Shown here piece after piece: positions 3,965-12,758 of a DNA stretch of 64,000 bases. Within the stretch, counting starts at the first letter, position 1, and each line of letters opens with the position of its first letter. Source of the DNA: Comamonadaceae bacterium PBBC2 (GTDB lineage: Bacteria > Pseudomonadota > Gammaproteobacteria > Burkholderiales > Burkholderiaceae_C). Position numbers and translations under genes: made by a program. Location of the stretch: the NCBI GenBank assembly GCA_002255935.1, contig NKIO01000004.1, positions 1 through 64,000 on the forward strand. Direction: 5' to 3'. The notes below the pieces were generated by a model that worked only from the letters and a program-made list of their open reading frames with translations, did no database searches and was not told where the DNA came from.

Positions 3965-4468
3965 ATGCGCAATCTGCCACCCATCACCCCTGCGGAGCCC
4001 CCCAAAGCCATGGAGGACCGATGGCGTCAAACCCATTTGGGGCGCTTGCTGGGCCACGCCATGCGGCGATTTGATGAACGCGTGTTGCACCTGATGGCGC
4101 ACAACGAAGGCGTTCCTTTGGCCTTGGCCAATCTGGCCTCGCGTGACCAAATCACGGCGGCGCATGTGCACATCACCCGCCACCTGGCCCTAGAAGGATC
4201 ACGCTTGACCGACCTAGCGCAGGCCGCCGGCATGAGCAAGCAAGCCATGGGCGATTTGGTGGACCAATGCACCGCTTGGGGTCTGGTGCAAAGGCAAGCC
4301 GACCAGAAGGACGCCCGTGCCAAGCGCGTGGTGTTCACGGCCGATGGCTTGGCCTGGCTGCAGGCCTTCAAAGACGCCGTGGCGCAGACCGAAGCCGAAT
4401 TCAAGGAGGCGGTCGGTCACGATGTGGCCACGGTGGTCGCCCTCGGATTGGAAGCCTACGCGCATTGA
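3965..4468 (+). CDS. MarR-family winged-helix transcriptional regulator
   Basis: LTDLAQAAGMSKQAMGDLVDQCTAWGLVQRQADQKDARAKRVVFTADG is a MarR-type wHTH pattern; longer ORF from 3875 possible. Confidence 0.8.
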   Translation: MRNLPPITPAEPPKAMEDRWRQTHLGRLLGHAMRRFDERVLHLMAHNEGVPLALANLASRDQITAAHVHITRHLALEGSRLTDLAQAAGMSKQAMGDLVDQCTAWGLVQRQADQKDARAKRVVFTADGLAWLQAFKDAVAQTEAEFKEAVGHDVATVVALGLEAYAH

Positions 4469-4557
4469 ATGGCCGAACAAGGCCAGAGCTGACACTAAAA
4501 TCAAGCCAGCGTCCGATAGATACCTCTTAAGCGTGACGCAGCCATAAGGAGACAGCC

Positions 4558-5232
4558 ATGCGAATTCTCATTGCCGAAGACGATCAGGTGCTTGCCGACG
4601 GTTTGTTGCGCACCCTGCGCAATGCGGGCGCGGCGGTGGACCACGTGGCCAGTGGCAGCGAGGCCGATGCGGCCTTGATGACCAACAACGAATTCGATTT
4701 GCTGATCCTGGACTTGGGCCTGCCCCGCATGCATGGCCTGGAGGTGCTCAAGCGCTTGCGCTCACGCGGTTCGGTCTTGCCGGTGCTGATCCTCACGGCC
4801 GCTGACAGCGTGGAAGAGCGCGTCAAAGGCTTGGACTACGGCGCCGACGACTACATGGCCAAGCCCTTCAGCCTGCAAGAATTGGAAGCCCGTGTGCGCG
4901 CCCTGACCCGCCGTGGCATGGGCGGCGCCACCTCGCAAATCAAACACGGTCCGCTGATCTATGACCAGTCCGGTCGCGTGGCCACCATCGACGGCAAGAT
5001 GGTCGAGCTGTCGGCACGTGAGCTGGGTTTGCTCGAAGTGTTGCTGCAACGCGCCGGTCGCTTGGTGAGCAAAGACCAATTGGTCGAACGCCTGTGCGAG
5101 TGGGGTGAAGAGGTCAGCAACAACGCGATCGAGGTGTACATCCACCGCCTGCGCAAGAAAATCGAAAAAGGCCCGATCCGCATCGCCACCGTGCGCGGCC
5201 TGGGCTACTGCCTCGAAAAAATCCCGGGTTGA
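4558..5232 (+). CDS. OmpR-family response regulator
   Basis: Receiver domain MRILIAEDDQVLADGLL...LLILDLGLPRMHGLEVL and C-terminal winged helix (VYIHRLRKKIEKGPIRIATVRGLGYCLE). Confidence 0.93.
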   Translation: MRILIAEDDQVLADGLLRTLRNAGAAVDHVASGSEADAALMTNNEFDLLILDLGLPRMHGLEVLKRLRSRGSVLPVLILTAADSVEERVKGLDYGADDYMAKPFSLQELEARVRALTRRGMGGATSQIKHGPLIYDQSGRVATIDGKMVELSARELGLLEVLLQRAGRLVSKDQLVERLCEWGEEVSNNAIEVYIHRLRKKIEKGPIRIATVRGLGYCLEKIPG

Positions 5233-5266
5233 CCGACGCCGGGATGCCCTCACCTGGGTCTGAGCC

Positions 5267-6730
5267 ATGAAATCCAAAGGTTGGGGCGTCAAGTTATTCA
5301 AACGCGAGCAGCGCTCGCTGTTCGGGGAAATCCTTGACTGGATGCTCACCCCCCTGCTGCTCTTGTGGCCCATCAGTCTGGCCCTGACCTGGCTGGTGGC
5401 ACAAGGGCTGGCCAACAAGCCCTTTGACCGCGCCATGGTCTACAACGTGCAGGCGCTGGCGCAGCAAGTCAGGCTGGGACCCGACAAAAAGGTGGAATTC
5501 AGCCTGCCGCAACCGGCCAGCGAACTCTTGCGTGCCGATGAAACCGACTTGGTTTATTACCAAGTGCGTGGCGCCAACAACGAGCACCTGAGCGGTGACC
5601 GCGATGTGCCCCTGCCATCGGACGAAGAAGAAAAAGGCAGCAGCTACGAAGTGCACATCCGCGACGACGAGATGCGCGGCATGGAAGTGCGCGTGGCCTA
5701 CACCTGGATACGCTTGGACGCCGATGGCAAACGGCCCGCACTGGTGCAGGTGGCCGAGACGCGCGAAAAACGCTCCGTGCTGGCCGCCGAAATCATCAAG
5801 GGGGTGATGCTGCCCCAGTTCGCTTTGCTGCCCTTGGCGGTGCTGTTGGTGTGGCTGGCGCTGGTGCGCGGCATCAAGCCCTTGTCGGAGCTGGAAGAGC
5901 GCATCCGAGCCCGCAAGCCCGACGACCTGAGCCCATTGGACGACAAAGCGGTGCCCATGGAAGTTGCGCCCCTGGTGCTCTCGGTCAACGACTTGCTGGA
6001 GCGCTTGAAAGACTCCATCGTCACGCAAAAACGCTTTTTGGCCGATGCGGCGCACCAGCTCAAAACACCGCTGGCCGGTTTGCGCATGCAGGCCGATTTG
6101 GCGCAGCGCTCAGGCTCGAGCGAAGAAGACCTCAAAAAATCGCTCCAGCAAATCGGCCGCGCCAGCGTGCAAGCCACGCACACCGTGAACCAGTTGCTGT
6201 CACTGGCCCGCGCTGAAGGCGGCGGTGCCAGCGTGCCCCAGCAAGCCTGTGACATGGCCCGCATGGTCAGCGATGTGCTGCAAGACTGCCTGCCCCGCGC
6301 CATGGACAAGGGGCTGGACCTGGGCTACGAAGGCGTGGACCCGGACACCCCTGGCGTCAAAGTGACGGGCAATCCGATCTTGCTCAAAGAGATGGTGCGC
6401 AACCTGGTGGAAAACGCCATGAACTACACACCCTCCACCGACGAACGCCCCGGCGTGATCACCGTGCGCGTGTTGGTGGACCCGTACAGCAAGGCCTTGG
6501 TGTTGCAAGTGGAAGACAACGGCCCGGGCATTCCCGTGCCTGAACGCGAGTTGGTGTTCCAGCCCTTCTACCGGGCTTTGGGCACCAATGTGGACGGCTC
6601 GGGCCTGGGCTTGCCCATCGTCAAAGAAATCGCCCAGCAGCACGGCGCCACGATCAGCATTGACGCCACCTTCGAGCACCAAACGCCACCGGGTGCATGC
6701 TTCACCCTGCGCTTTGCCCCACCCGCCTGA
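5267..6730 (+). CDS. Sensor histidine kinase (TctE/QseC-like)
   Basis: H-box AAHQLKTPLAGLRMQADLAQR, N-box LVENAMNYTP, G-box VEDNGPGIP; follows response regulator. Confidence 0.93.
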   Translation: MKSKGWGVKLFKREQRSLFGEILDWMLTPLLLLWPISLALTWLVAQGLANKPFDRAMVYNVQALAQQVRLGPDKKVEFSLPQPASELLRADETDLVYYQVRGANNEHLSGDRDVPLPSDEEEKGSSYEVHIRDDEMRGMEVRVAYTWIRLDADGKRPALVQVAETREKRSVLAAEIIKGVMLPQFALLPLAVLLVWLALVRGIKPLSELEERIRARKPDDLSPLDDKAVPMEVAPLVLSVNDLLERLKDSIVTQKRFLADAAHQLKTPLAGLRMQADLAQRSGSSEEDLKKSLQQIGRASVQATHTVNQLLSLARAEGGGASVPQQACDMARMVSDVLQDCLPRAMDKGLDLGYEGVDPDTPGVKVTGNPILLKEMVRNLVENAMNYTPSTDERPGVITVRVLVDPYSKALVLQVEDNGPGIPVPERELVFQPFYRALGTNVDGSGLGLPIVKEIAQQHGATISIDATFEHQTPPGACFTLRFAPPA

Positions 6731-6743
6731 GCTTTTGCAAACC

Positions 6744-6770
6744 ATCGCCCAACACAGTTGGGCTCCCACA
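6744..6770 (-). repeat. REP-like palindrome, single copy
   Basis: ATCGCCCAACACAGTTGGGCTCCCACA; reverse complement TGTGGGAGCCCAACTGTGTTGGGCGAT. Confidence 0.8.
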
Positions 6771-6802
6771 AGGGGTCACAGCCAGTTGCTTGGTCAGTTT
6801 TA

Positions 6803-6887
6803 GGGGTTGAACTGTGTTCGGCGATTCGCAGCCCACCCCAATCGCTCGAGCCTCACAGCCCATCGCCCAAGCAGCTGGGCTCCCACA
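6803..6887. repeat. BIME-like pair of opposed REP palindromes
   Basis: GGGGTTGAACTGTGTTCGGCGATT ... CATCGCCCAAGCAGCTGGGCTCCCACA, inverted halves around a short spacer. Confidence 0.8.
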
Positions 6888-6937
6888 ACAAGCCAGCGCA
6901 CCTGCCCCAACGATGGGTGCTGTGTGATTTGGGTCTC

Positions 6938-7027
6938 TGTGGGAGCTGAACTGTGTTCGGCGATTTGCAGCCCACTCCAATCACTCGAGCCTCACAACCC
7001 ATCGCCCAACAAAGTTGGGCACCTACA
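6938..7027. repeat. BIME-like pair, second tandem copy of the 6803-6887 unit
   Basis: TGTGGGAGCTGAACTGTGTTCGGCGATTTGCAGCCCACTCCAATCACTCGAGCCTCACAACCCATCGCCCAACAAAGTTGGGCACCTACA; spacer nearly the same as in the previous unit. Confidence 0.82.
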
Positions 7028-7068
7028 AGGCGACGGTCCATGACAACTCGTTGCGCTGCAAAGAACAA

Positions 7069-7728
7069 TCAGGCCGGTTTGCCCATGTTCAGTTGCAGAC
7101 GCTCGCGCTCGATCACGCGGGCCACGGCGGGCACGGCGGCGACTTTTTGCACAAAGGCCCACAGGTCGGGGTGCTCTTCGGGGGTGATGCCAGCGATCGT
7201 GCCCCAGCGGGTGAAGGTCAGGGCGTAAGCGTCGAGCACACCGAACTGCTCACCGGTCAGCCAAGCCTGGCCTTTGGCCGCAGCCGCTTGCACCAGCGCC
7301 TGCAGCTCGCCCAGTTGTTGGCGGAACACTTGGATGTTGTAGGGCTTGAGCGCCGCCTGCACTTCGGGCAGATCCGAAAATTTTTGCGGCATGAAGATGT
7401 GCGTGAAGGTCGGGTGCACCGTGTTGTTCATCCAAGCCAAGGTGGAGATGGCCTGCGCACGGGCGATCGGCTCGGTGGGCAAAAAGCCCGCCTGCGGGAA
7501 GATCTGGTCCAGGTGCAGTGCAATCGCCACGATCTGCGTGATCACCTGGCCGTTGTTGACCAGCACCGGCACTTGGCCGCGCGGGTTGATGGTCTTGTAC
7601 GCCTCGCTGTTTTGCTCGCCCTTGTGCAGCTTGACCATGCTGGGTTCGAACTCGGCGCCGCTCATCTCGAGCAGCACATGGGGCACAAAAGAACAAGCGC
7701 CAGGGGCGAAATACAGTTTCAGGCTCAT
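7069..7728 (-). CDS. Glutathione S-transferase family protein
   Basis: MSLKLYFAPGACSFVPHVLLEMSG... thioredoxin-like N-terminus, GST C-terminal helical region. Confidence 0.9.
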   Translation of the reverse strand: MSLKLYFAPGACSFVPHVLLEMSGAEFEPSMVKLHKGEQNSEAYKTINPRGQVPVLVNNGQVITQIVAIALHLDQIFPQAGFLPTEPIARAQAISTLAWMNNTVHPTFTHIFMPQKFSDLPEVQAALKPYNIQVFRQQLGELQALVQAAAAKGQAWLTGEQFGVLDAYALTFTRWGTIAGITPEEHPDLWAFVQKVAAVPAVARVIERERLQLNMGKPA

Positions 7729-7747: not shown

Positions 7748-8188
7748 TTATTTGGAAGCAGGTTTGGCGGGTGCCGAATTGGATGGGGCGACAGGTGACG
7801 CTGCCGTCACGGGTGCAGACGCGGTGGTGGCCGGTGCTGCAGCCGCAGGTTTGGCAGAGACCGCAGTGGTTTCAGGCGTTGCGGCCTTGCTGGCCGTTGG
7901 CGCAGGCACTGAGCCAGTCACTGAGGCAGGCTCTGAGCCAGGTACTGAAGCAGGCAGTGGGGCAGGCTCTGACGCAGGTTCAACAGCTGTGGTGGAAACA
8001 GCAGGCGCAGAAGCCGCTTGCCCCGGGATGCTGACCTTCAAGGCCTCGGGTTGGATTTGTTGCTGCAAGCGCTCGGGTTCGCGCTGCACGTTGGGGCCCC
8101 AGCCCCAGCGCGCAAAGGCATCCCATTGCCAAGCCAGGGCCACCAGGTTGAGCAAGAGCAAAACGCCAATCCACCCGCGCATCTTCAT
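7748..8188 (-). CDS. Small membrane-anchored Pro/Ala/Ser-rich protein, function unknown
   Basis: N-terminal hydrophobic helix MKMRGWIGVLLLLNLVALAW, then low-complexity PAS repeats; overlaps birA by 4 bp. Confidence 0.7.
   Translation of the reverse strand: MKMRGWIGVLLLLNLVALAWQWDAFARWGWGPNVQREPERLQQQIQPEALKVSIPGQAASAPAVSTTAVEPASEPAPLPASVPGSEPASVTGSVPAPTASKAATPETTAVSAKPAAAAPATTASAPVTAASPVAPSNSAPAKPASK
7908..7979. repeat. Imperfect 12-bp tandem repeat (6 units) inside the 7748-8188 CDS
   Basis: actgagccagtc / actgaggcaggc / tctgagccaggt / actgaagcaggc / agtggggcaggc / tctgacgcaggt. Confidence 0.85.
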
Positions 8189-8949
8189 GGTTTGTCCTCG
8201 GCAAAGGGTCTGACACTGACTTCGGAGCTGTGGATGTCCAGCACGCCCGCATCCGTCTGCAATCGTAGCGCACCACTGGCGCTGACACCCAGAGACATGC
8301 CCTGTGCGCCATCGCTGGTGTGCACGCGGCGGCCTTTGAGCACATCGCGTGCTTCAAAGCGTTGTTGCCAAGGCGCAAAGCCGGTGTGTTCAAAAGCCAA
8401 AACGGTTTGAATCAAAGGCGCCGCCACCAAGGCCAAGGCCGCGGGGGCGCTGATGTCGGGCAGCCACTCGGTCAATGCCGCAGGTGGTGTGTTCATGCCC
8501 TCGGCAGGGCGCGGGCGGATGTTGAGACCCACACCGATCACCACCTGGCTGCGCCCGCCCATGCTGGCCGCTTCCACCAAAATGCCGCCCAGCTTGCGCT
8601 CTTGCACCCACAAATCGTTGGGCCACTTCAGGCCCACTTGCGGGTGCAGGCTCTCGGCCAAGCTCAGGCCCACCGCCAGCGACAGGCCCGACCAGTCTTT
8701 GGGCGCGATCGGCAGGCTCAGTGAAAAGGTCAGCGAGTCTCCCGGCTGGCTTTGCCACACGCGGCCCATGCGGCCACGGCCTGCGGTCTGGCGCTCGGCC
8801 ACCAGCAGCGTGGGCTCGGTCTGGCCCGCGCGGGCGCGGCGCATGAGTTCGGTGTTGGTCGAGTCCACCTCGGGCAGGATCTCGACGGTGAAGTCGGGCA
8901 GCCAAGGGTAGACCTGCTCCCAGATGGCTTCAGCGGGCCAGGTGCTCAT
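8185..8949 (-). CDS. birA: Biotin--[acetyl-CoA-carboxylase] ligase
   Basis: EVDSTNTELMRRA...LLVAERQTAGRGRMGRVWQSQPGDSLTFSLSL, KWPNDLW motifs; start set at MSTWPAE because the longer ORF (to 9003) runs into a REP element. Confidence 0.92.
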   Translation of the reverse strand: MSTWPAEAIWEQVYPWLPDFTVEILPEVDSTNTELMRRARAGQTEPTLLVAERQTAGRGRMGRVWQSQPGDSLTFSLSLPIAPKDWSGLSLAVGLSLAESLHPQVGLKWPNDLWVQERKLGGILVEAASMGGRSQVVIGVGLNIRPRPAEGMNTPPAALTEWLPDISAPAALALVAAPLIQTVLAFEHTGFAPWQQRFEARDVLKGRRVHTSDGAQGMSLGVSASGALRLQTDAGVLDIHSSEVSVRPFAEDKP

Positions 8950-9000
8950 GTTTAGATGTTGAGGGCTGTGGCGCACATTCGGCGTGGGTGCTGTGCTGGC

Positions 9001-9027
9001 CATCGCCCAACAAGTTGGGCTCCCACG
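9001..9027 (-). repeat. REP-like palindrome, single copy
   Basis: CATCGCCCAACAAGTTGGGCTCCCACG. Confidence 0.78.
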
Positions 9028-9047: not shown

Positions 9048-9728
9048 TCAGCCTTTCTTGGTGCTCTTCTTGCCCGACTTTTCGCCGGCTTTATCGCTGG
9101 CTTTTTTGCCGGCCTTGGCGTCAGCCTTGGGCTTTTTCTGGGCTCCGGCTTTCACTTTGGGCTTGGCGTCTGCTTTGCCCTTCGCTTTGGATTTGCCCTT
9201 GGCCTTTTTCTGGCCGGGGATCTTGGGTGTGTCTTCGCGGTCCTTGGGCGAGAGCAGCGTGCCTCGGCAGTTCTTGGCGCCGCACCAGCAGGGGTACTCG
9301 GCCAAGAGCTTCTTGGTGTAGGGCTCGTCGATGATCAGGCCGTAGTCGTAGTTCAGCTCTTCACCGGCCTTGATGTTGCGCAGCGCCTTGATGAAAACGC
9401 GCTCGTTGTCTTCGTCGGCTTCGCAGTTGGGGTCGCAGCTGTGGTTGATCCAGCGCGAGGAGTTGCCGCCGTGCAGCGCGTCGATCACCTTGTCCTCGTT
9501 CACATGGAAGTAGAAGGTGTGGTTCGGGTCCTTGGGGTCGTGCGGGTGGCGGTCTTGCGCCTCGTCCCAGCTGATGATCTCACCCACGTACTCGATCAGG
9601 GTCTCGCCCTCGGCGAGGTCTTGCAGGGCGAACACGCCCTTGCCGTGAACGCCGGAGCGGCGGACCTGGATGCGTCGCTTGGATGACGAGGCGGAAGTTG
9701 AAACAGGGGTTTTGGCCACGGCGTTCAA
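9048..9728 (-). CDS. SET-domain protein-lysine N-methyltransferase with Lys/Ala-rich C-terminal tail
   Basis: GVHGKGVFALQDLAEGETLIEYVGEII...SRWINHSCDPNCEAD...GEELNYDYG...CWCGAKNCRGTLL (SET plus post-SET Cys motif), followed by KKAKGKSKAKGKADAKPKVKAGAQKKPKADAKAGKKASDKAGEKSGKKSTKKG. Confidence 0.9.
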   Translation of the reverse strand: MNAVAKTPVSTSASSSKRRIQVRRSGVHGKGVFALQDLAEGETLIEYVGEIISWDEAQDRHPHDPKDPNHTFYFHVNEDKVIDALHGGNSSRWINHSCDPNCEADEDNERVFIKALRNIKAGEELNYDYGLIIDEPYTKKLLAEYPCWCGAKNCRGTLLSPKDREDTPKIPGQKKAKGKSKAKGKADAKPKVKAGAQKKPKADAKAGKKASDKAGEKSGKKSTKKG

Positions 9729-9827
9729 AAATTTGTTATGGTGAATTCATGTGGGCGTGCGCGTGAGCGCGCCCAGGCGTGCATGTGTGCGAGCGCGCGA
9801 GCGCACGCGAGACAAGGGATTGTAGAC

Positions 9828-12758
9828 ATGAAAACTTTGGTGATTGCAGAGAAGCCTTCGGTGGCTCAAGACATCGTGCGGGCCCTGACCCCTGTGGCGG
9901 GCAAGTTCGAAAAACACGAGGACCATTTTGAGAGCGACACCTATGTGGTGACGAGCGCGGTGGGCCACCTGGTGGAGATCCAGGCCCCCGAGCAATACGA
10001 TGTGAAACGCGGCAAGTGGAGCTTTGCCAACTTGCCCGTCATTCCGCCACACTTTGACTTGAAGCCGGTGGACAAGACCAAGAGCCGCTTGACGGCCGTG
10101 GTCAGGCAAGCCAAGCGCAAGGACGTGACAGCCATCATCAACGCCTGTGACGCGGGCCGCGAAGGGGAGTTGATCTTCCGCCTGATCGAGCAGTACGCCG
10201 GTGGTACCAAACCGCTGAACAAACCCGTCAAGCGCTTGTGGCTGCAGTCTATGACGCCGCAAGCGATCCGCGACGGCTTTGACAGCCTGCGCAGCGAACA
10301 GCAAATGCAGGGCCTGGCCGACGCCGCCCGCAGCCGCTCTGAGGCCGACTGGCTGGTGGGCATCAACGGCACCCGCGCCATGACCGCGTTCAACTCGCGC
10401 GATGGCGGCTTTTTCTTGACCACCGTGGGCCGGGTGCAAACGCCCACGCTGGCCGTGGTGGTCGAGCGCGAAGAACAAATCCGCAAGTTCATCAGCCGCG
10501 ATTACTGGGAGATCCACGCCGAGTTTGCTGCCGCCGCAGGCACCTACCCTGGCAAGTGGTTTGACCCCGCTTGGAAAAAAGAAGAAGACGCCGAAAAGAA
10601 AGCCGACCGCCAATGGACCGCTGCCGAGGCACAAGCCATCGTCAACGCCGTGCGCGGCCAAAAAGCCACCGTCACCGAAGAGGCCACGCCCACCACGCAA
10701 GCCAGCCCTGGCCTGTTTGACCTGACCAGTTTGCAGCGTGAGGCCAACGGCAAGTTCGGCTTCTCGGCCAAAACCACGCTGGCGCTGGCGCAAAGCCTGT
10801 ACGAACGCCACAAGGCCCTGACCTACCCGCGTACCGACTCGCGCCACCTGCCCGAAGACTATGTGCCCGTGGCCAAACAGACTTTCGAGATGCTGGCCGA
10901 CAGCGGCATGCGCCACCTGGCCCCCCACGCCCTGACGGCGCTCAACAACAACTACGTGCGCAAGATCCCGCGTGTGTTCGACAACAAAAAGGTGTCGGAC
11001 CACTTCGCCATCATCCCCACGCTTCAAGCGCCCAGCGGCTTGTCTGAGGCCGAGCAAAAGCTGTATGACCTGGTGGTGCGCCGCTTCATGGCGGTGTTCT
11101 TCCCCAGCGCCGAATACCAAGTCACCACCCGCATCAGCGTGGCCGCAGGCCACAGCTTCAAGACCGTGGGCAAGGTGTTGGTCAAGCCCGGTTGGCTCGC
11201 CATCTATGGCAAGGAAGCCGCCAATGAAGTTGAAGACGCCAAAGACGGTGACAAGGGCCAGAACCTGGTGCCGGTGCAGCCGGGCGAACAAGTCGGCGTC
11301 GAGTCGGTCGAAGCCAAGGGCCTCAAGACCCGCCCACCGGCACGCTACTCAGAAGCCACGCTGCTGGGCGCCATGGAAGGCGCGGGCAAGATGGTGGACG
11401 ACGACGAGCTGCGCGAAGCCATGCAAGAAAAAGGCTTGGGCACACCAGCCACCCGCGCCGCGACCATCGAAGGCCTGATCAACGAGAAGTACATGCTGCG
11501 CGAAGGCCGCGAGATGATCCCGACGGCCAAGGCCTTCCAACTCATGACGCTGTTGCGCGGCTTGCAGGTCGAAGAACTCTCCAAGCCTGAGCTCACCGGC
11601 GAATGGGAATACAAGCTCGCCCAGATGGAGCAAGGCAAACTCAGCCGCGCCACCTTCATGGCCGAGATCGCGGCCATGACCGAGCACATCGTCAAGAAAG
11701 CCAAAGAGTACGACCGCGACACCGTGCCCGGTGACTACGCCACCCTGAGCACGCCCTGCCCCAACTGCGGCGGCGTGGTCAAAGAAAACTACCGCCGCTA
11801 TACCTGCACCGGCGCCAACGGCGCATCCGAAGGCTGCGGCTTCTCGTTTGGCAAATCGCCCGCGGGCCGCACCTTTGAGCCGGTCGAAGTTGAGCAGTTC
11901 ATGCGCGACAAAAAGATCGGCCCGCTGGACGGCTTCCGCTCCAAGGCCGGCTGGCCCTTCGTGGCCGAGATGGCGCTCAAGTACAACGAAGAAGAAAAGA
12001 ACTGGAAGCTCGAGTTTGACTTCGGCGACGACAAGAAAAACGAAGACACCGGCGAGATCGTCGAGTTCACCGACGCCTCGCTGGGCGCCTGCCCCAAGTG
12101 CGGCAGCGCGGTACACGAGCACGGCAGCAACTACGTGTGCAGCAAAGCCGTGCCGACGAACGAACAGCCTACCCCCAGCTGCGACTTCAAGAGCGGCCAA
12201 ATCATCTTGCAGCAACCCATCGAGCGCGAGCAGTTCAGCAAATTGCTGAGCACCGGCAAGACCGACTTGCTCGACAAGTTCGTCAGCAACCGCACGCGCC
12301 GCAGTTTCAAGGCCATGCTGGCCTGGAACCCCGAAGAGGGCAAAGTCAGCTTCGAGTTCGAGCAGCGCGAAGGCGGCAAGAAATACCCGCCGCGCAAGAC
12401 AGCCGCCAAAAAGACCCCGTTTGGCAAAGTGGCCGTGAAGAAGGCCGCCACCAAAACCACTGCGGCCAAAACCCCCGCTGCCAAAAAAGCTGCCAAAACC
12501 GCCGCCCCCAAAGCGCCGCGCAAAGCCGCTGTGGGCACCTTGAAGCCCAGCGCCTCATTGGCCGCCGTGATCGGTGACGGCACCTACGCCCGCACCGAAG
12601 TGGTCAAGAAAATCTGGGACTACATCAAAGCCAACGGCCTGCAAGACCCAGCCGACAAACGCTCCATCAAAGCCGATGGCAAGCTGCAAGCCGTGTTCGG
12701 CAAAGACCAAGCCACCATGTTCGAGCTGGCCGGCATCATCGGCAAGCACTTGAGCTGA
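9828..12758 (+). CDS. topB: DNA topoisomerase III with C-terminal H1-like linker and SWIB domain
   Basis: MKTLVIAEKPSVAQDIVRAL...; ALTYPRTDSRHLPEDY active site region; CxxC zinc motifs (CPNCGG, CPKCGS); Lys/Ala linker, then VIGDGTYARTEVVKKIWDYIKANGLQDPADKRSIKADGKLQAVFGKDQATMFELAGIIGKHL (SWIB/MDM2 pattern). Confidence 0.94.
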   Translation: MKTLVIAEKPSVAQDIVRALTPVAGKFEKHEDHFESDTYVVTSAVGHLVEIQAPEQYDVKRGKWSFANLPVIPPHFDLKPVDKTKSRLTAVVRQAKRKDVTAIINACDAGREGELIFRLIEQYAGGTKPLNKPVKRLWLQSMTPQAIRDGFDSLRSEQQMQGLADAARSRSEADWLVGINGTRAMTAFNSRDGGFFLTTVGRVQTPTLAVVVEREEQIRKFISRDYWEIHAEFAAAAGTYPGKWFDPAWKKEEDAEKKADRQWTAAEAQAIVNAVRGQKATVTEEATPTTQASPGLFDLTSLQREANGKFGFSAKTTLALAQSLYERHKALTYPRTDSRHLPEDYVPVAKQTFEMLADSGMRHLAPHALTALNNNYVRKIPRVFDNKKVSDHFAIIPTLQAPSGLSEAEQKLYDLVVRRFMAVFFPSAEYQVTTRISVAAGHSFKTVGKVLVKPGWLAIYGKEAANEVEDAKDGDKGQNLVPVQPGEQVGVESVEAKGLKTRPPARYSEATLLGAMEGAGKMVDDDELREAMQEKGLGTPATRAATIEGLINEKYMLREGREMIPTAKAFQLMTLLRGLQVEELSKPELTGEWEYKLAQMEQGKLSRATFMAEIAAMTEHIVKKAKEYDRDTVPGDYATLSTPCPNCGGVVKENYRRYTCTGANGASEGCGFSFGKSPAGRTFEPVEVEQFMRDKKIGPLDGFRSKAGWPFVAEMALKYNEEEKNWKLEFDFGDDKKNEDTGEIVEFTDASLGACPKCGSAVHEHGSNYVCSKAVPTNEQPTPSCDFKSGQIILQQPIEREQFSKLLSTGKTDLLDKFVSNRTRRSFKAMLAWNPEEGKVSFEFEQREGGKKYPPRKTAAKKTPFGKVAVKKAATKTTAAKTPAAKKAAKTAAPKAPRKAAVGTLKPSASLAAVIGDGTYARTEVVKKIWDYIKANGLQDPADKRSIKADGKLQAVFGKDQATMFELAGIIGKHLS

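Follow-up and report, generated by a model that had tools for sequence, protein, structure and literature searches.

The window, by which we mean the whole 64,000-nucleotide stretch of DNA analysed, carries two divergently oriented genes separated by a 108 bp putative control region (9720..9827). The gene on the minus strand (9048..9719, 223 aa) encodes a SET-domain protein lysine methyltransferase, as indicated by the Pfam profile, its relatives, and the core of the AlphaFold model. The plus-strand gene (9828..12758, 976 aa) is topB, encoding DNA topoisomerase III with a C-terminal SWIB domain (Pfam and NCBIfam profiles). The profiles and coordinates thus confirmed the divergent placement of SET and topB-SWIB given in the preliminary description. 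The in-frame GTG at 9719 was taken as the SET start; it is kept in close relatives, whereas the TTG at 9728 chosen by the ORF caller is not conserved. For topB, the most likely start is the ATG at 9828, which gives the 976 aa product, rather than the ATG at 9738, the first of the open frame. Also on the minus strand, at 8185..9003, lies a gene for a biotin protein ligase of the BirA type (BPL; Pfam BPL_LplA_LipB, 69.1 bits).

The SET domain scored 88.8 bits against a Pfam cut-off of 22.4. Across 36 bacterial SET proteins, the GxG motif of the SAM site, the NHxCxPNC and ELxYDY motifs, and the post-SET Cys positions were invariant or nearly so, and no catalytic or zinc position was altered in the protein of the window. 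Its best PDB relative by sequence was the eukaryotic MLL1 (3.4e-26), which was also the closest by fold, with about 37% identity; the closest named relative, with a 98% identical SET, was a Limnohabitans lacus locus (L003), and the genome of the window is a Limnohabitans-like one of the Comamonadaceae. Judging by the profile, the motifs, and the MLL1 fold match, the protein is probably a genuine lysine methyltransferase, predicted to be active on a bacterial protein. The core of the AlphaFold model was confident, and pLDDT was about 45–57 over most of the Lys-rich C-terminal tail (9051..9236, minus strand, about 62 aa), which is predicted to be disordered and is lineage-specific. A second SET paralogue, 62% identical, is located near a glmS-like gene (G000:C61:116493-116798, L330); no SWIB, topB, or H1-like gene adjoined it within the stretch of that contig examined. 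The second SET of genome G223 also lies beside glmS, and that of G228 lies elsewhere.

TopB comprises a Topoisom_bac domain (370.8 bits), two Toprim_Crpt repeats, a Lys/Ala-rich linker (12396..12530, plus strand), and a SWIB domain (12540..12752, plus strand; 87.2 bits against a Pfam cut-off of 25), so that the C-terminal SWIB of the preliminary description was borne out. The protein exceeded the TIGR01056 topB cut-off and fell under that of topA_bact, which identifies it as topoisomerase III. The NCBIfam family PRK14724 / NF011313, defined by the TopB core, two Toprim_Crpt repeats, and a C-terminal SWIB, matched it over its whole length (1957.8 bits, cut-off 1088); SWIB-fused TopB is already catalogued there and hence is not new. 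The TopB C-terminus looks as though a stand-alone SWIB protein had been fused on, because both share the layout of an AAKK tail followed by SWIB. One such stand-alone protein (L334 5007-5507, G000:C8) has an N-terminal AAKKAP-repeat tail and then SWIB, and another is encoded on contig C101 of the same genome. The basic tail of TopB, often together with SWIB, probably tethers the enzyme to DNA; a Streptomyces TopA with C-terminal lysine repeats (Strzalka 2017, as cited in PMC12445093) reportedly provides a precedent for a DNA-clamping role.

The family, a large group of bacteria from water and soil, was surveyed in 151 genomes from 126 genera, and SET was found in 142, SWIB in 151, and topB in 149 of them. 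According to the listed coordinates, SET and topB were divergently adjacent in 124 of the 129 genomes having both, and the gene order persists over more than 80 genera. Five genomes were exceptions (G189, G165, G208, G164, and G273). The locus sequence placed the two genes side by side after all in G189, and G165 was adjacent with a partly masked SET; in G208 the locus was cut by the contig end, and in G164 the topB partner was left without an assignment. G273 is the one apparently genuine exception, and its TopB groups with another family on the TopB tree. The pairing therefore reaches far beyond close relatives, to which the preliminary description had allowed that it might be confined, and adjacency is near-universal in the family. 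SWIB was rejected as the cause of the pairing, which is equally tight where TopB is without SWIB. In other families, neither BPL nor SET was found beside topB in any of 44 loci within a flank of 1–1.5 kb. A different arrangement occurs in family f6, with gyrB and SET in tandem and SET convergent with topB (L337 at 4318-7344, L338, and L339; SET directly follows gyrB in L337 and L339). A Limnohabitans-type SET-topB locus was also present in a record titled as an Akkermansia muciniphila MAG (L034, CALQKH020000010.1), which is probably a mislabelled or contaminated bin.

The preliminary description had called the tails of both proteins histone-H1-like and had joined SET and TopB through them into one module. 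Their Lys-rich composition was upheld, and none of 595 neighbouring ORFs had at least 10 Lys in the last 40 aa, which places the SET tail above background. Homology to H1-like proteins was not: the TopB linker gave 19 bits with HC2 (cut-off 40) and 21 with hist_H1_lk_Burk (cut-off 80), and the SET tail matched neither profile, so that the likeness is compositional only. The SET tail was also rejected as a conserved feature. It is sporadic, occurring on 11 of the 91 SETs in the family sample, and changed state 8 times on the TopB tree (FastTree, with many open forks), on which SWIB and SET presence changed 4 times each. Lys-rich C-terminal tails were seen on SETs of other Burkholderiales families (L344, L347, L348, and L349), with an N-terminal one in L345, and the tails appear to have been gained repeatedly across these families. 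The Lys/Ala-rich tail of TopB was found in the family with and without SWIB, and across the order and other families with or without SET. Thus, the pair and the intact SET stood, whereas the tails as a link between the two proteins did not: that of SET comes and goes, that of TopB usually outlives SET loss, and the idea that SET modifies its neighbour's tail was rejected, tail and SET having been lost independently in most cases.

In a wider form, this proposal describes a nucleoid-modification module in which SET methylates Lys tails of TopB, of the stand-alone SWIB, or of an H1-like protein and so tunes DNA binding. A complete, KMT2-like SET, the conservation of the pair across the family, and the presence in the genome of an H1-like gene and of a separate SWIB protein bearing a long AAKK tail all agree with it, and in family f6 SET adjoins topB in another orientation beside gyrB; however, the TopB tails of f6 are Arg-rich, with SET adjacent nonetheless. 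One SET-less genus (L251 and L323) lost all Lys from its TopB tail, as the module would lead one to expect, but the Lys-rich tail was kept in the other five of the seven SET-less family genomes and occurs without SET in other families. Contrasts of SET presence with tail Lys count within families agreed with the module in f4 and f7 and disagreed in f9. The chlamydial evidence on SET methylating H1-like proteins is likewise conflicting (PMC6426960, PMC3980110): cpnSET of C. pneumoniae methylates Hc1 (Murata 2007, as cited in PMC3980110), whereas NUE of C. trachomatis did not. Taken together, we consider such a module quite improbable; methylation of TopB or other tails by SET is possible, though unsupported. 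An H1-like gene at G000:C61:54401-54931 (L335; 64 bits, cut-off 80) encodes a plausible alternative SET substrate.

BPL is the third member of the conserved order, and the arrangement BPL-, SET-, topB+ was found in 89 of 100 family loci. A gene with no obvious functional relation to SET or topB is therefore as conserved in its place as they are, and in six SET-less cases SET was cleanly missing, with BPL abutting topB. Both observations would be expected if the three genes were neighbours merely by ancestry, SET and TopB having no functional link. We regard this as unlikely, since the order has persisted over more than 80 genera, SET stands beside topB in f6 as well, there in convergent orientation, and the spacer is under structural constraint.

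That constraint concerns a feature missed by the preliminary description, which links SET and topB through their shared spacer. At 9748..9809 the spacer contains an interrupted alternating purine-pyrimidine, and hence Z-DNA-prone, tract. It is interrupted in the window's own genus, and the relatives mostly have a perfect run of 15–53 nt. The longest alternating run of the SET-topB gap had a median of 25 nt and reached 53, compared with 12 for the remainder of these loci. The gap held the longest run of the locus in 79 of 91 cases, with a shuffle p of ≤0.01 in 76; fifteen of the 91 loci, including the deepest-branching pairs L259 and L269, were without a run of >13 nt. For the gap of the window, none of 1000 base shuffles reached the observed alternation, as against 16 of 1000 dinucleotide shuffles, which are a poor null because they retain alternation. 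Pattern searches, on which all the genome-wide counts rest, detected a perfect alternating 26-mer in 13 of 30 whole family genomes and none anywhere in the other 17. In 11 of the 13 the SET-topB gap was the sole site, and the remaining two contained an ACGCAC microsatellite. Three places in the window's genome matched a 28-mer at ≤2 mismatches, namely the SET-topB gap and two others, one of them in a plasmid-like replication region. A near-alternating tract at about 2220-2260 of L374 (G000:C49:13221) adjoins a TTATCCACA sequence resembling a DnaA box, and a plasmid Rep-like ORF follows downstream.

The tract remained upstream of topB in five of the seven SET-less genomes (L251, L264, where it is interrupted, L290, L319, and L323) and was missing from L253 and L325. 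Outside the family, a run of >15 nt was present in 1 of 47 topB upstream regions, a 24 nt run in L412 (G126, family f48). The element therefore goes with topB, because it is mostly kept after SET loss and absent from 46 of the 47 upstream regions outside the family. Among the open-access journal papers searched, we found none describing alternating DNA at topB or a SET gene as its neighbour.

An alternation profile was anchored on the ATTGTA box, so that alternation itself was not used for alignment. The proportion of alternating steps was about 0.8–1.0 from -37 to -12 of the anchor and about 0.5 elsewhere. With the same anchor, the transition/transversion ratio was 2.3 in the tract and 0.8–0.9 in most flanking sequence; with the tract defined by its own run, the values were 3.1 and 1.0, the pairs compared not being phylogenetically independent in either case. 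The ratio was raised as well (1.9) in the block immediately upstream, a region into which the Limnohabitans tract reaches and which owes part of the increase to it. Changes that break alternation, namely transversions, are thus suppressed and transitions are not, i.e., alternation rather than the letters is under constraint.

On the topB side, the tract is accompanied by a conserved TTGTAG box (9820..9825, plus strand), a possible -10 element. Of 76 loci, 67 had TTGTA no more than 45 nt from the tract, and 55 had it at 7–13 nt (1.6% in shuffles). On the SET side, a conserved block (9730..9749, minus strand) may be the -10 region of a SET promoter; by eye, it recurs across the family in three sequence classes. 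A scan for sigma-70 consensus promoters found none. Conserved flanking boxes would also suit a regulator binding site, and the observed pattern would be equally expected of a protein that reads alternating DNA; alternatively, the tract could lie within a structured leader RNA of topB, and the leader of the window folds to -39.9 kcal/mol (z -1.5). However, alternation alone is conserved and the letters are not, Rfam gave no match, and across 63 tracts hairpins were not clearly in excess of alternation-preserving shuffles (mean z -0.42). Hairpins are therefore not the feature kept, because such shuffles fold nearly as well on average, and a hairpin or RNA leader was rejected as without support across the family. 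Accounts of the tract by a regulator or leader, rather than by Z-DNA, thus seem to us of low probability.

The Z-DNA propensity of the tract was assessed with published B-Z energies (PMC3024258), by which no other site of the locus was as Z-prone as the gap in 80 of 91 cases. An alternating run of low B-Z energy is thus present family-wide and weakly in the window, where the interrupted tract ranks second among the Z-prone sites of the 64 kb. Our own simple two-state estimate, which took a domain size of 5 kb and assumed values for the helical and junction twist, predicted Z onset near a sigma of -0.040 in the gap and -0.046 elsewhere.

Our main reading, to which we assign a probability of roughly 0.5 from sequence evidence, is that the spacer is a control element which is prone to form Z-DNA and sensitive to torsion, and which topB shares with SET. 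The spacer would contain two back-to-back promoters, at the putative positions given above, with a conserved box flanking the tract on either side. It would be left under-wound when SET and topB are transcribed divergently or when negative supercoiling rises globally, and under this negative superhelical stress the tract may take up torsion in vivo as Z-DNA. DNA topology would then, through Z formation, determine how strongly topB, and probably SET too, is expressed, this being the presumed direction of regulation; SET would be coupled to local supercoiling by its position. TopB, as a DNA-tethered topoisomerase III, could close a feedback loop. The broader claim, that the whole family controls topB and SET via a dedicated Z-DNA torsion switch in the promoter region of both genes, with the DNA form and not the sequence being conserved, is put forward only tentatively.

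The question whether selection has given Z-DNA a regulatory role in bacteria has long been open. The tract described here is near-unique in the genomes with its perfect form, retains alternation over >80 genera although its letters drift, and is located at the control region of a topoisomerase gene, and it thereby makes this question directly testable in culturable strains. It also offers a reason besides tail methylation for SET and topB staying together.

Among known systems, PRK14724 differs in nothing essential from the TopB of the window, which is an ordinary member of that catalogued family. The SET domain is closest to that of eukaryotic KMT2/MLL1 by sequence and fold; unlike KMT2/MLL1, the SET of the window lacks accessory domains, carries a Lys tail, and would act on a bacterial substrate. 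The Streptomyces TopA is likewise a type IA topoisomerase with a Lys-rich C-terminus, but it is a topoisomerase I from another phylum, whereas TopB is a topoisomerase III. A chromatin module of SET, SWIB, and topoisomerase has already been proposed for Chlamydiae (PMC6426960). As in the chlamydial set (TopA-SWIB, SWIB, and the SET proteins NUE/cpnSET), a topoisomerase-SWIB fusion, a stand-alone SWIB, SET, and an H1-like gene occur in one genome, and to this extent the chlamydial parallel drawn in the preliminary description stands; it fails for the topoisomerase I-SWIB fusion, in place of which the genome of the window has topoisomerase III. In addition, the host is free-living and the SET gene adjoins the topoisomerase gene. 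Supercoiling-sensitive topoisomerase promoters underlie topA/gyr homeostasis, and the control proposed here would likewise make a topoisomerase gene respond to DNA topology. Z-prone promoter sequences have also been described (PMC3024258). In contrast to both, the locus studied here has a dedicated alternating tract, conserved in its pattern across the family, in the divergent spacer of topB and SET.
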